Shown one piece after another: positions 58,047 through 63,565 of a stretch of 64,000 nt of DNA. Location: IMG/VR virus record IMGVR_UViG_3300046514_000858, positions 29,746 through 93,745 of that record; one strand, given 5' to 3'. The stretch is from a virus. Both the position numbers and the translations under genes were made by a program. Below the pieces are notes generated by a model. The model was not told where the DNA came from, did no database searches, and was given only the letters and a program-made list of their open reading frames with translations. Position 1 is the first letter of the stretch. Each line of letters begins with the position of its first letter.

Positions 58047-58787
58047 TCAGCGGTCGAGGAAGCTGATGATGTCGAGCGGGTGGACGGCGTAGTTGACGTG
58101 GGTGATCGGATGCTCGCGGTGCGGATCGACCAGCTTGACATGCTTCATGATCGCCACCAGAGTCCAGTGGCCGCTGATCTTCACCCAGCACCCGCCCCCG
58201 CTGTTGCCGTACGTGATCGGCGCGGACGTGCTGATCGACCGCATCTTGGCTTCCAGATCGGAGATGTAGCCCGCGGTGAGGTGTGCGGCGTCGACGAAGC
58301 CCGCACCATCCGGATGACCCAGCGTCGCCGGGTATCCCATCACGAGGCACGGCAAGTAGACGCAGATGTCCTGCCCGTACTGTCGCTCCGTCAGGACCCG
58401 CGCCACTCCCGGGAAGCCGGACTTGCCTTCGAGAAGGGCCAGATCCTTCACGACGTCAAATGTTACGATTTTCATTTGACTATTCCAATTTGAATGATAC
58501 ATTCCATTATGATACGAGACGGTCGCCTCGGTGGATCCGCGCACGACATGATAGCACGTCAGGACTCGCGCGACCAGATCATCTTGATAGACGACCACGC
58601 CGCTACCCCCGCCTCCTTCCGGCGTCTCGATCAGCACGGTTGCCCGGGCGATCTCCTTGTCAATCTGGAAGGCCGCCTGCACTTCGGCCGACGGACTCGG
58701 GCCCGTGATCACGGCACCCGCCCCGAACATCACAACCGACGCCAGAGCCATCGCCACGTAGAGCCAGTGGGCTTTTAGGAAATTCAT
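58047..58787 (-). CDS. Membrane-anchored trypsin-like serine protease (246 aa)
   Basis: N-terminal transmembrane helix (about residues 4-28, LYVAMALASVVMFGAGAVI). Chymotrypsin/HtrA-type fold with catalytic His80 (TCYHVV), Asp115 (VVKDLALL) and Ser196 (YGNSGGG). No PDZ domain. N-in anchoring would put the protease outside the inner membrane. Start after GAGGTG on the minus strand, 17 bases beyond a P-C element; single gene against the flow of its neighbours. Confidence 0.82.
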   Translation of the reverse strand: MNFLKAHWLYVAMALASVVMFGAGAVITGPSPSAEVQAAFQIDKEIARATVLIETPEGGGGSGVVVYQDDLVARVLTCYHVVRGSTEATVSYHNGMYHSNWNSQMKIVTFDVVKDLALLEGKSGFPGVARVLTERQYGQDICVYLPCLVMGYPATLGHPDGAGFVDAAHLTAGYISDLEAKMRSISTSAPITYGNSGGGCWVKISGHWTLVAIMKHVKLVDPHREHPITHVNYAVHPLDIISFLDR

Positions 58788-58797
58788 GATGCACCTC

Positions 58798-58811
58798 ACA
58801 ATTCCTTGGAC
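58798..58811 (-). promoter_or_regulatory. P-C element, minus strand
   Basis: Minus-strand GTCCAAGGAATTGT followed by GAGGTG and the protease ATG at 58787. Confidence 0.5.
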
Positions 58812-58973
58812 ATCGAGCATTCATATATCTGCAGTGAAAAATAGGTGTAACTAAAAAGGTTACACGAAGTCTCTGAATTATCGCTGTAGGCGCAACAACG
58901 GTAGTTACGGGTGGTGGGCAGCCGGGTGTTCCGGCTGACGCAGTTCTGATGGACAGGTAGAGGGAACAAAATC
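58812..58973. promoter_or_regulatory. AT-rich divergent control region
   Basis: Unusually AT-rich for this genome. GTGTAAC-TAAAAAG-GTTACAC (58845-58865) is a perfect 7-bp inverted repeat, operator-like. On the minus strand TTACAC and TATATG are 17 bases apart, a sigma70-like spacing. CAGCCGG-GTGTT-CCGGCTG (58919-58937) is a hairpin ahead of the sigma-like gene. Confidence 0.45.
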
Positions 58974-59534: not shown

Positions 59535-59922
59535 GAACCCAGCGCGTCCCAACTGCTTTGCACGTCTGCACGATCCGCAGAACGGGTTGTGTCAGGCGTG
59601 CGCGGTCATGGTGACCTGCGGCGTCGCGCGCATGAAGACGTGGTTGCTTGAAGGTCCGATGCCGACGATCCGCACGCCGCAGGTCCGCGTCAACGACTGG
59701 CCGCCGGGCACCTGCCGCTGGGCCGCCCGGGAGGCGATCAACCGACTCGACGGCACCTTCACCGAGATGGACGTGATCATCCCGTATCACGCCATCTGCC
59801 GTTCGATCAAGCATCGCCCGGGTAACCCCGAGCGCACAATCCGCCGGGTCGTCTCGGATCTCGTGCGCGCAGGCGTTCTTATCAGAACAGCGAAGGCGAA
59901 GCTACAACATGGATCTCACTGA
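59524..59922 (+). CDS. Cys-cluster plus wHTH-like protein (132 aa)
   Basis: N-terminal C-x11-C-x2-C-x5-C (CFARLHDPQNGLCQACAVMVTC region), a spacing recalling iron-sulfur or zinc sites in phage regulators. The C-terminal half (ERTIRRVVSDLVRAGVLI) looks like a winged helix. Overlaps the sigma-like gene by 11 bases and the polymerase gene by 14, so it is likely co-regulated with both. Regulatory role is inferred. Confidence 0.6.
   Translation: MASENPARPNCFARLHDPQNGLCQACAVMVTCGVARMKTWLLEGPMPTIRTPQVRVNDWPPGTCRWAAREAINRLDGTFTEMDVIIPYHAICRSIKHRPGNPERTIRRVVSDLVRAGVLIRTAKAKLQHGSH
59873..59881 (+). promoter_or_regulatory. P-B element upstream of the polymerase
   Basis: GCGTTCTTA inside the end of the wHTH gene, 27 bases before the polymerase ATG. 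Confidence 0.4.
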
Positions 59923-62900
59923 TCAGGACTACACCGACCTGCACGTCCACTCGACGTACAGCCTCCTCGACGGTACCGCTGATCCTTCGCAGCTCCTCGA
60001 AGCGACCAAGAAGCTCGGCCGGAAGCAGATGGCCCTCACCGACCACGGGTCCATCGACGGCTGGCTCCGGTTCCAGAAGGCCGCGCAGAAGATGGGCGTG
60101 CAGCCCATCTTCGGATGCGAGCTCTACATGCTGGAGAATTTCGAGGAGCGCGAGTCTGGCAAGCACAAGAACCTTCACCTCTCGGCGATTGCCAAAACCC
60201 CGGAGGGCGCGGGCAAGCTGATTCAGGCGCTCGGCTACGCCAACATGGAGGGCATGGGCAAGCACGGCTTCGCCGCGCGTCCGTTCCTTCCGCTCGACTA
60301 CCCCATCGCCCACAACTGGGGTGGCGACGTGATCATCATGACCGGCTGCGCGAGCTCGCCGTTCTGGAATGCGGTCGGCGGGGACGAGCTGCTCGGATTC
60401 TACAAGGACCACTTCAAGGACGACCTGTACGCCGAGATCATGCCGATCCACGACTGGGTCGATCCGCTGCTGCCTCCATCCGATCCGGCCCATCTCGTGC
60501 AGGGCGCGATCAACCGGAAGGCTCTTGCGGCGTGCGACCGGTTCGGCATCAAGCCCGTCGTGACCAGTGATATCCATTACGTCACGCCGGAGGATGGCCA
60601 GTTCCACGAAGTCGTTCTTGGTCTCGGCCAGAAGTACATGACGTGGAACAATCCGAAGAGGTGGAAGTTCGAGACGCACTGCAGCTTCGTCCATACGGTT
60701 TCCGGCCTGCAGGAATCGCTTTTCAAGATGGGGCACGATCATGATCTCTCATGCGCCGCCATTCGGAACACGCGCGAGGTGGGAGAGAAGTGCTTCCACA
60801 AAATTCACCAGCCCACCATCAAGCTCCCTGCGGTCATCGGCGAGATGTCCGACGAGGAAGAGCGCGAGCGTTTTCTTCAGCTCGTCATGGCGGGTCTTCG
60901 GGCCAGAGGAGTCGCAGATCGCCCGGGATATCTTGAACGCGTTGCGACCGAGTACGACGTCATCGCACCGAAGGGCTTCGTACGATACATGCTCATGGTG
61001 TGGGATGTCGTCAAGTGGGCCAAGACCCACGGCGTGCTCATCGGCCCTGCCCGCGGTTCGGTGGGCGGTTCTCTCGTGGCTTTCGCCCTTGGGATCACTG
61101 ATCTCGACCCTATTGTCCACCGTCTGTGGTTTGAACGGTTCATCGACCCGGAGCGCAACGACCTCCCCGACATCGACATCGACATCGAAGATAGGAACCG
61201 GCACCTCGTCGAGCAGTACCTGAAGGAGAAGTACGGCGCGTACAACGTCGCGCACGTCTCCACTTTCTCAACCATGCTCGGGAAGACCGCCATCAAGGAC
61301 GTGTCCCGCCTGTTCGAGGTCCCACTCGTCGAAGCCCAGCGCATGTGCAACTGCATTCCCAAGATCCACGAGTCCGATGCGCGGGCCCACTTCACGATCA
61401 AGGACACCATCGAAGGGGGAGATCCCGATGCCAAAGCGTTCGCGTCCAAGTATCCTCATGTCGTTCAGCACGCGGCCCAGCTTGAGGGGCAAATTCGCGG
61501 GTGCGGCATTCACGCGGCTGGCTTTGTTGTGTCGGCGGATGATCTTAGAACGTCTGCGAGAGCACATCTTGTCACTCGACACGGCAAGGTCTCGATCAAC
61601 TGGGACAAGAACGACGCCGAGTCCATGGGATTCGTCAAGCTCGACCTGCTAGGAATCTCTACGCTTTCAGCGGTCGCTGAGGCGGTTCGCCTTGTCGAAG
61701 CGCGGCACGCCCGGAAAATCGAAATGACCGAGCTGCCGCTGACCGATCCCAAGACGTACGAGATGATCGGCCGGGGCGAGACGGCGACGTGCTTCCAGAT
61801 CAACACCGCGGGTACGACGAAGTATTGCAAGAAGCTGAAGCCCGACAACTTCGAGCACCTCGCGGCGATTACGGCTCTGTGGCGGCCCGGCCCTATCGCG
61901 TCGGGGGCGACCGAGATGTACGCCAAGTGCAAGAACGGCGAGGTCCCGATCTCGTACATCAACGACGCGTGGCGCGACATCACCGAGATCAGCTACGGCC
62001 AGATCATCTATCAGGAACAGATGGCCCAGATGCTGATGAAGCTCGCGGGCTACACGTTCGCTCAGGCCGACAAGGTCCGGAAGATCGTCTCGAAGAAGGG
62101 CGGCGTGCAGGCGTGGGACGATGAGGAACCGAAGTTCGCGGCCGGGTGCGCGAAGATGGGGCTCATCGATCAAGACTCCGCCCACAAGCTCTGGCAGGAG
62201 TCGAAGATGTTCGCCCTGTACGCGTTCAATCGCGCCCACTCGGTCGGGTACGGCATGCTGTCCTACTGGACCGCGTACCTCAAGGCCAACTACCCGGGTG
62301 AATGGCTCTGCGCATTCCTGAACTACGGCAACGCGGAGCGCGAGGAGCACGGCATCATGAATCGCGACGTCGCGCTCAAGGAGGCGCTGCGTCTCGGGAT
62401 CGACATTCTCCCGCCGGACATCAACAACAGCGAGGTCATCTGGGGCGTGGAGACGAATCAGTACGGGCGTTCCGTCCTGCGCGTCGGCCTGAAGGACGTC
62501 AAGTATCTCGGCGAGACCGCGGTCGAGGAGATCCAGAAGCTCAAGAGCCGCGTGAGGCGGATCGAGTCCATTGAGTTCTTCATGGAGAACGTCGACCGGC
62601 GCATCTGCAACAGCAAGGTCGTCAAGGCCCTCCTCTTCTGCGGCGCGTTCGATTCACTCCTTCCGCCGGAGGAGCGCACCCGCTGGATCAAGCAGTTCGA
62701 GCAGATGTACTCCACCTTCGAGCACGACAAGAAGCGGACCGAGCTCCTGCTGTGCCCCGAGCCCGACACCAACGCCGACGACATCATCGCGCGCGAGCGG
62801 AAGGTGTACCTGCGCTTCGATCCTCTGACACTGGACGGCGTGCATGCGCCCGAGCGGATTGCCAAGATCATCGGTGCGACGCTGGACCTCGATCTCGACG

Positions 62901-63565
62901 AGCCCGTCCTGCGCCGCGGCACGAAGACGTGGCTGGTTACCGACGCGATGGCCGGACTCCTGCCGGGTGCCAATGGCGTCATGTCCGGCGCTGAGGCAAA
63001 CATCTCCGACATCGTCGACAAGATTACCAAGTGCAAGCTGTGCGAGCTCCGAGATAGCTGTAAGAAACCAGTGCGGCCCGAGAAGGGCGTGCTTCGGGCG
63101 ATGATCGTATCCGAGACGCCCAGCACGTATGAGGACAAGTTCGGTCGGGCGTTGATCGGAGACTCCGGCGGCGAGTTCTGGCCGAGGCTGGAGCAGGCCG
63201 GGATCCTGCGCACCGACGTACACGTCACCAACGTGGTGAAGTGCGCCGCTCCGAAGAAGACCAAGCCCACGGCCGACCAGATCGATGGATGCATGCACCT
63301 CGAAGAAGAGATCAAGCGCGTGCAACCGCTGTGCATCCTCGCTCTCGGCAACCCCAGTCTCTACTGGTTCACCGGTCGCGAGGGCGGCGTCATGTCGGCG
63401 AACGGCCGGACGGAGTGGTCCACCAAGGCCAATGCGTGGGTCACCTTCTGCATCTCGCCGTCCAATCTCGTGTACGCCCGGGAAGAGGACGAGTACACCG
63501 AGCGGGCGGGGCTGCTCACCGCGGCCATTCAAGAATTCGCGCGGTGTATCGGGCAGTTCGTCTAA
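59909..63565 (+). CDS. dnaE: DNA polymerase III alpha (DnaE) fused to a UDG-like domain (1218 aa)
   Basis: PHP domain starts DLHVHSTYSLLDG (9-21) with TDHGS; polymerase C-family palm has GPARGSVGGSL and PDIDIDIED with catalytic Asp421, Asp423 and Asp425; fingers include FNRAHSVGYGMLSYWTAYLK. The OB-fold/tau-binding C-terminus of bacterial DnaE is missing. Instead, from about residue 1040, KCKLCELRDSC, SETPSTYEDKFGRALIGDSGGEFW, VTNVVKC and ILALGNPSLYWF match family-4/5 uracil-DNA glycosylases with a Fe-S Cys set. The usual GEAPG is SETPS, so activity may be altered. The frame is continuous across the junction. Confidence 0.9.
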   Translation: MDLTDQDYTDLHVHSTYSLLDGTADPSQLLEATKKLGRKQMALTDHGSIDGWLRFQKAAQKMGVQPIFGCELYMLENFEERESGKHKNLHLSAIAKTPEGAGKLIQALGYANMEGMGKHGFAARPFLPLDYPIAHNWGGDVIIMTGCASSPFWNAVGGDELLGFYKDHFKDDLYAEIMPIHDWVDPLLPPSDPAHLVQGAINRKALAACDRFGIKPVVTSDIHYVTPEDGQFHEVVLGLGQKYMTWNNPKRWKFETHCSFVHTVSGLQESLFKMGHDHDLSCAAIRNTREVGEKCFHKIHQPTIKLPAVIGEMSDEEERERFLQLVMAGLRARGVADRPGYLERVATEYDVIAPKGFVRYMLMVWDVVKWAKTHGVLIGPARGSVGGSLVAFALGITDLDPIVHRLWFERFIDPERNDLPDIDIDIEDRNRHLVEQYLKEKYGAYNVAHVSTFSTMLGKTAIKDVSRLFEVPLVEAQRMCNCIPKIHESDARAHFTIKDTIEGGDPDAKAFASKYPHVVQHAAQLEGQIRGCGIHAAGFVVSADDLRTSARAHLVTRHGKVSINWDKNDAESMGFVKLDLLGISTLSAVAEAVRLVEARHARKIEMTELPLTDPKTYEMIGRGETATCFQINTAGTTKYCKKLKPDNFEHLAAITALWRPGPIASGATEMYAKCKNGEVPISYINDAWRDITEISYGQIIYQEQMAQMLMKLAGYTFAQADKVRKIVSKKGGVQAWDDEEPKFAAGCAKMGLIDQDSAHKLWQESKMFALYAFNRAHSVGYGMLSYWTAYLKANYPGEWLCAFLNYGNAEREEHGIMNRDVALKEALRLGIDILPPDINNSEVIWGVETNQYGRSVLRVGLKDVKYLGETAVEEIQKLKSRVRRIESIEFFMENVDRRICNSKVVKALLFCGAFDSLLPPEERTRWIKQFEQMYSTFEHDKKRTELLLCPEPDTNADDIIARERKVYLRFDPLTLDGVHAPERIAKIIGATLDLDLDEPVLRRGTKTWLVTDAMAGLLPGANGVMSGAEANISDIVDKITKCKLCELRDSCKKPVRPEKGVLRAMIVSETPSTYEDKFGRALIGDSGGEFWPRLEQAGILRTDVHVTNVVKCAAPKKTKPTADQIDGCMHLEEEIKRVQPLCILALGNPSLYWFTGREGGVMSANGRTEWSTKANAWVTFCISPSNLVYAREEDEYTERAGLLTAAIQEFARCIGQFV

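Follow-up and report, generated by a model that had tools for sequence, protein, structure and literature searches.

A UDG-like domain at the C-terminus of a phage C-family DNA polymerase: a recurrent fusion, here with an altered active site

What would a uracil-DNA glycosylase (UDG) domain do at the end of a replicative DNA polymerase? The question is raised by a gene in the window, the whole stretch of DNA analysed here (64,000 nucleotides, positions 29746-93745 of a 93,745-base IMG/VR virus record). The initial annotation had read one continuous frame with PHP, C-family polymerase and a UDG-like end, and the analysis agreed: the ORF of 1218 amino acids is intact, carries the corresponding Pfam domains, and holds a UDG domain and a replicative polymerase in a single reading frame. 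Its parts are as follows.

59909..63565, + strand: DnaE-UDG fusion gene, 1218 aa, one uninterrupted frame with ATG start, stop included (Pfam architecture)
59936..60442, + strand: PHP domain (Pfam)
60878..61654, + strand: palm, DNA_pol3_alpha (Pfam)
61166-61192, + strand: PDIDIDIED, residues 420-428 (sequence)
61643-61645, + strand: third catalytic aspartate, Asp579 (sequence)
61661..62155, + strand: finger domain (Pfam)
62396..62659, + strand: helix-hairpin-helix (HhH) domain, HHH_6 (Pfam)
62660..62995, + strand: linker of about 110 aa without a recognised OB or tau-binding domain (Pfam; model partly of low confidence)
62996..63562, + strand: family-4-type UDG domain, residues 1030-1218 (Pfam, NCBIfam, AlphaFold, PDB match)

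Pfam placed PHP at residues 10-178, DNA_pol3_alpha at 324-582, the finger at 585-749 and HHH_6 at 830-917. The protein thus has the elements of a C-family DNA polymerase, namely PHP, palm with three catalytic aspartates, finger and HhH; PDIDIDIED, already noted from the sequence, was present in the palm together with the third aspartate. Alignment to 5lew showed that the nine positions that bind metal in the exonuclease site of M. tuberculosis DnaE1 were all kept (H12, H14, D21, H46, E71, H90, C147, D221 and H223, the last two just past the Pfam match), so proofreading by this polymerase may be intact.

The UDG family PF03167 matched residues 1062-1195 (E 1.7e-15; 7e-17 when the C-terminal end was searched alone), and three NCBIfam UDG models matched within about residues 1029-1195 at 62-79 bits, far under their cut-offs of 125 and 250. 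For the end domain, AlphaFold gave a model with a mean pLDDT of 93.2, whose best PDB match was T. thermophilus (Tth) UDGa, 1ui0 (TM 0.80/0.85). A 1200-residue model (residues 19-1218; pLDDT 82, pTM 0.68) matched Taq and M. tuberculosis DnaE and, separately, 1ui0. The NCBIfam DnaE models matched up to about residue 944, and neither Pfam nor NCBIfam gave a match to an OB or tau-binding family in the 1218-aa protein, which does not have the C-terminal OB and tau-binding region of cellular-type DnaE. The UDG domain therefore stands in place of the usual OB/tau-binding end, as had been proposed, and the possibility that the C-terminus aligns to a known DnaE domain was excluded.

Between the HhH and UDG domains of the homologous loci L006, L028, L029, L031, L034, L044 and L159, a conserved segment (LGGVYGNFKD...) was observed; none was seen in the window. 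An OB fold in this interval (e.g. in L006), OB-like by eye, was rejected: profile comparison with DnaE C-termini gave a probability of 0.2%.

The fusion was also encoded whole, at 68% amino acid identity, by L002, an independent 96.8-kb virus contig. The DNA of L001 was 99.6% identical to the window over 10 kb, with zero mismatches and one gap; L001 is the same or nearly the same virus and therefore not independent evidence. That two genes were wrongly joined in assembly or annotation has virtually no chance of being the explanation; the initial annotation had named an assembly error at the junction as a risk. Such an artefact was ruled out by L002 and by dozens of distant records with the same architecture, complete phage and plasmid genomes among them.

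The same fusion was sought in other phages by a scan seeded with polymerase stretches only. It was found in 57 of the 78 viral DnaE loci nearest by polymerase sequence (one of the 57 being a near copy of the window's virus). Of the rest, 18 loci had no UDG, 2 ran into contig ends and 1 was split into two frames, and most of the 18 UDG-less proteins ended about 20 aa past the polymerase and HhH region. A UDG-seeded scan yielded 80 loci. Classification of all loci gathered by then gave about 40 C-terminal DnaE fusions, a count that includes repeats of the same contig, versus about 25 N-terminal PolA fusions. A scan of genome contigs gave 57 loci, with a DnaE fusion in one only (L188). The DnaE-UDG fusion was also present in Nickievirus phages and on plasmids of about 104-117 kb from Acinetobacter and Cupriavidus, with A. 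baumannii and C. metallidurans among the hosts (L186, L187 and L246 from Acinetobacter and L245 from Cupriavidus measure about 104-115 kb); these Nickievirus and plasmid proteins are annotated as DNA polymerase III alpha only. In L187 (plasmid p6200), the polymerase and UDG parts are kept apart by a NUMOD4 gene. The data showed that the fusion is real and recurs within a single lineage, which comprises phages and phage-like plasmids.

A literature search, with subscription papers outside its reach, returned no paper describing a DnaE-UDG fusion, which apparently is undescribed so far. The earlier interpretation was thus right on the fusion and on the identity of the domains, but its statement that no characterised protein of this design exists was right only in part: it was borne out for DnaE in the literature searches, whereas UDG-PolA fusions are known and the DnaE version is widespread.

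When fused and unfused states were placed on the polymerase tree, five changes were needed, for which one gain, three losses and one split would be the simplest reading; with plasmid rows added, the base of the tree was not resolved. The UDG domains of the DnaE fusions, Nickievirus excluded, formed one clade (support 99/100), and the four "alone" UDG rows inside it were contig-edge fragments. The UDG was lost by truncation after the HhH about three times in the lineage. Such truncation is therefore tolerated, and the polymerase does not require the domain to be retained whole.

The active site of the window's UDG domain was examined by alignment.

63032..63043, + strand: Cys1042 and Cys1045, predicted 4Fe-4S site
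63110..63124, + strand: motif 1 SETPS, residues 1068-1072, for GE(A/G)PG (E41 kept, G42 to T)
63152..63154, + strand: Leu1082 in place of the uracil-pocket Phe (Tth F54); Leu in L002 too
63230..63232, + strand: Asn1108, the uracil-recognition Asn (Tth N80), kept, in VTNVVKC 1106-1112
63242-63244, + strand: Cys1112, predicted 4Fe-4S site
63290-63292, + strand: Cys1128, predicted 4Fe-4S site
63455..63457, + strand: Ser1183 in place of the catalytic His (Tth H155); the HP(S/A) motif reads SPS

In Tth numbering, G42T, F54L, N89K and H155S were changed, and E41, E47 and N80 were kept. The change of GEAPG to SETPS with retention of the Cys set and VTNVVKC had been seen in the initial annotation and was located here; loss of the motif-2 histidine was absent from it. 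The domain has the UDG superfamily fold and the four Fe-S cysteines of family 4 UDG, and lacks motif 1 GE(A/G)PG and the motif-2 catalytic His. UdgX is defined by a GEQPG motif and a KRRIH loop with nucleophilic His109 (PMC10359453); membership of this family was ruled out, as SETPS and AAPKKTKPT stand in the corresponding places. The nearest relative, L002, has AEAPG and IHPA with the main pocket residues intact, and shares F54L and N89K with the window.

The pocket was then compared across fused domains, and was counted as intact where E41, A/G42, N80 and H155 were kept. It was intact in 41 of 52 domains of the DnaE-seeded set, which was found without using UDG and is unbiased by motif; among the other 11, one had the QD doublet of family 1 and ten were changed in at least one of the four residues. 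In the UDG-seeded set it was intact in 31 of 41 domains. A cysteine was present at each of the four Fe-S positions in 51 of the 52 DnaE-seeded domains. The proposed water-positioning residue N89 was absent from all DnaE-fused domains but one and kept in 25 of 26 PolA fusions. Pocket loss recurred in several branches of the lineage, and degenerate domains persist in Nickievirus and in those Acinetobacter plasmids whose domains were read out. Several other degenerate members had no N80, which was missing likewise from most other members without H155.

Several further variants were observed. In L012 (858-3257), a family-A polymerase carries the UDG domain C-terminally instead of N-terminally. The UDG of phage SPO1 is fused to a family-A polymerase; an SPO1-type PolA fusion in L020 (Lysinibacillus phage LysYB1) has a degenerate UDG (E41D, F54M, N80G) and is located near thymidylate synthase genes. 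GQDPG, with the QD doublet of family 1 UNG, was found as motif 1 in L046, L048, L037 and L181; in Tth UDGa, the engineered double substitution E41Q-G42D restored most of the activity that the individual substitutions had cost (PMC5387724).

Selective constraint was estimated from 17 degenerate domains under 95% identity, several of them related. The Fe-S cysteines were kept at 61 of 68 positions versus 265 of 425 for other conserved sites (Fisher p 3e-6, the rows not all being independent). Omega was calculated pairwise by the Nei-Gojobori method; most pairs other than the four given here were saturated. In two degenerate pairs the UDG value was close to that of DnaE (nickie/hairong, 0.22 vs 0.19; L067/L068, 0.106 vs 0.104), and damaged domains can therefore be under full constraint. 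For L147/L175, at high divergence, the values were 0.26 and 0.18. For the window and L002, the only close relative compared, they were 0.61 (UDG) and 0.21 (DnaE), a difference equally compatible with relaxed constraint and with a new role. A relative-rate count gave no significant sign that the window's UDG had evolved faster (13 vs 7, p 0.26).

Genes for a DnaB-like helicase, a DnaG-like primase and a ResIII-type helicase are found close to the fusion gene, and the other end of the record holds gp32-like SSB, RecA and SbcCD-like genes. Thymidylate synthase (PF00303) was found neither in the window's record nor in 24 other IMG/VR DnaE-UDG records, and dUTPase (PF00692) in none of 39 records searched, the window's included; there was thus no evidence from either gene of a modified base in the window's record. 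However, dUTPase was rare in the comparison set too (1 of 23 records, 21 PolA-UDG and two Nickievirus), so a background rate would be needed before anything could be concluded. No second UDG gene was found in 25 records searched, including the window's. By eye only, the frame at 58047-58820 (- strand) looks like a trypsin-like serine protease (GNSGGG).

Kinetic data on Tth UDGa bear on what the substitutions may mean. H155 is the residue of largest effect: H155S lowered k2 from 0.23 to 7.2e-5 per second, about 3,200-fold, and Km stayed similar (7.6e-7 vs 9.7e-7 M); G42D showed no affinity for DNA containing uracil, and F54A carried a 17-fold cost (PMC5387724). From the sequence and by analogy, we give little short of an even chance to the reading that a replication-coupled UDG domain has here become a tethered module of the polymerase that holds DNA without excising uracil. 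A phage replicative C-family polymerase would long ago have gained a family-4-type UDG in the C-terminal position that the OB and tau-binding parts occupy in cellular DnaE. Because the pocket is intact in most relatives, replication-coupled recognition or excision of uracil was probably the original role. In the window, the excising chemistry would have been lost (His to Ser, motif 1 altered, Phe to Leu), with the fold and four Fe-S cysteines kept. The domain would most likely raise the grip of the polymerase on template or product, and the polymerase may still slow at uracil via the retained N80. We infer loss of excision, DNA binding and an effect on processivity for the window protein; weak uracil binding or excision by it is possible, since E41, E47 and N80 are kept. 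Excision cannot be the role that intact and damaged members share; the simplest candidate for such a role is the holding of DNA through the UDG fold, for which vaccinia D4 sets the precedent (PMC1936997).

It is unlikely, though the strongest of the alternatives, that the domain is a uracil sensor without excision, binding uracil in template or product so that the polymerase pauses. H155S is the very change that spares Km while cutting k2, E41, E47 and N80 are kept, and the retained PHP ligands mean that a paused polymerase could trim back; archaeal family-B polymerases provide a precedent, recognising deaminated bases via a different pocket (PMC8596578). However, G42T and F54L alter the pocket too, at positions where Tth UDGa lost binding or paid a cost. 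Several degenerate members lost N80, so recognition of uracil cannot be what all members share, and since most other H155-less members lack N80, a sensor would be special to the window.

A decaying relic, functionless in this phage and on its way out, is quite unlikely. It would agree with the roughly three losses by truncation and with an omega threefold higher in UDG than in DnaE between the window and L002. Yet the domain is full-length and confidently folding (pLDDT 93) with four cysteines although truncation is tolerated, its omega is below 1, and other damaged domains are strongly constrained.

Uracil excision by an active domain, in cis with the replisome, is likely the role of the intact relatives, but for the window protein, in which another residue would have to replace His155, it is very unlikely. 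The intact pockets in both sets argue for excision in the lineage, as do the inteins inside the UDG domains of L011 and L075, since such elements favour conserved active-site motifs. The UDG domain is interrupted by inteins carrying Hint and DUF559/Vsr-like endonuclease domains in L011/L013, where the break falls immediately before the Cys of NVVKC, in L075/L076, and also in L170 and L171; L129 has an insert in its UDG domain too. Against excision stand the missing H155 of the window and the absence of N89 from nearly all DnaE-fused domains in contrast to the PolA fusions.

For the lineage as a whole, the DNA-holding reading may be extended, at somewhat worse than even chances: the UDG fused to DnaE would have a replication role without need of excision, and several branches would independently have dropped excision and kept a processivity or template-binding module. 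Because a single lineage contains intact, damaged, split and lost versions, repair, uracil sensing and processivity can be tested against each other as the role of the UDG domain.

Among known systems, family 4 UDG (1ui0; T. maritima TM0511) is like the window domain in fold, four Fe-S cysteines, E41, E47 and N80, but the window domain is the C-terminus of a polymerase and carries G42T, F54L, N89K and H155S. UdgX has the same Fe-S UDG fold and a near-equal structural score. Cellular DnaE (Taq, M. tuberculosis, E. coli) shares PHP, palm, fingers, HhH and catalytic residues and gave the best PDB matches to the polymerase, whereas its OB and tau-binding end is replaced by the UDG here. UDG-PolA fusions of phages, as in PaBG and its group (PMC7412058), also place a family-4-like UDG on a replicative polymerase, but that polymerase is of family A with the UDG usually N-terminal; the window has a C-family enzyme, a C-terminal UDG and a replaced N89. 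A second polymerase family is thus joined with UDG in phages, and the label "DNA polymerase III alpha" has concealed the fusion both in phages and in plasmids from clinical isolates of Acinetobacter. The vaccinia UDG D4 has a replication role independent of its glycosylase activity (PMC1936997) and offers an analogy only, that of a UDG fold serving a viral polymerase independently of excision (PMC1936997; PMC4450493); it differs in being a family 1 UNG, a separate protein joined through A20 and a still active glycosylase. If the extended reading is true, the DnaE-fused UDG would be the bacterial-virus counterpart of D4.
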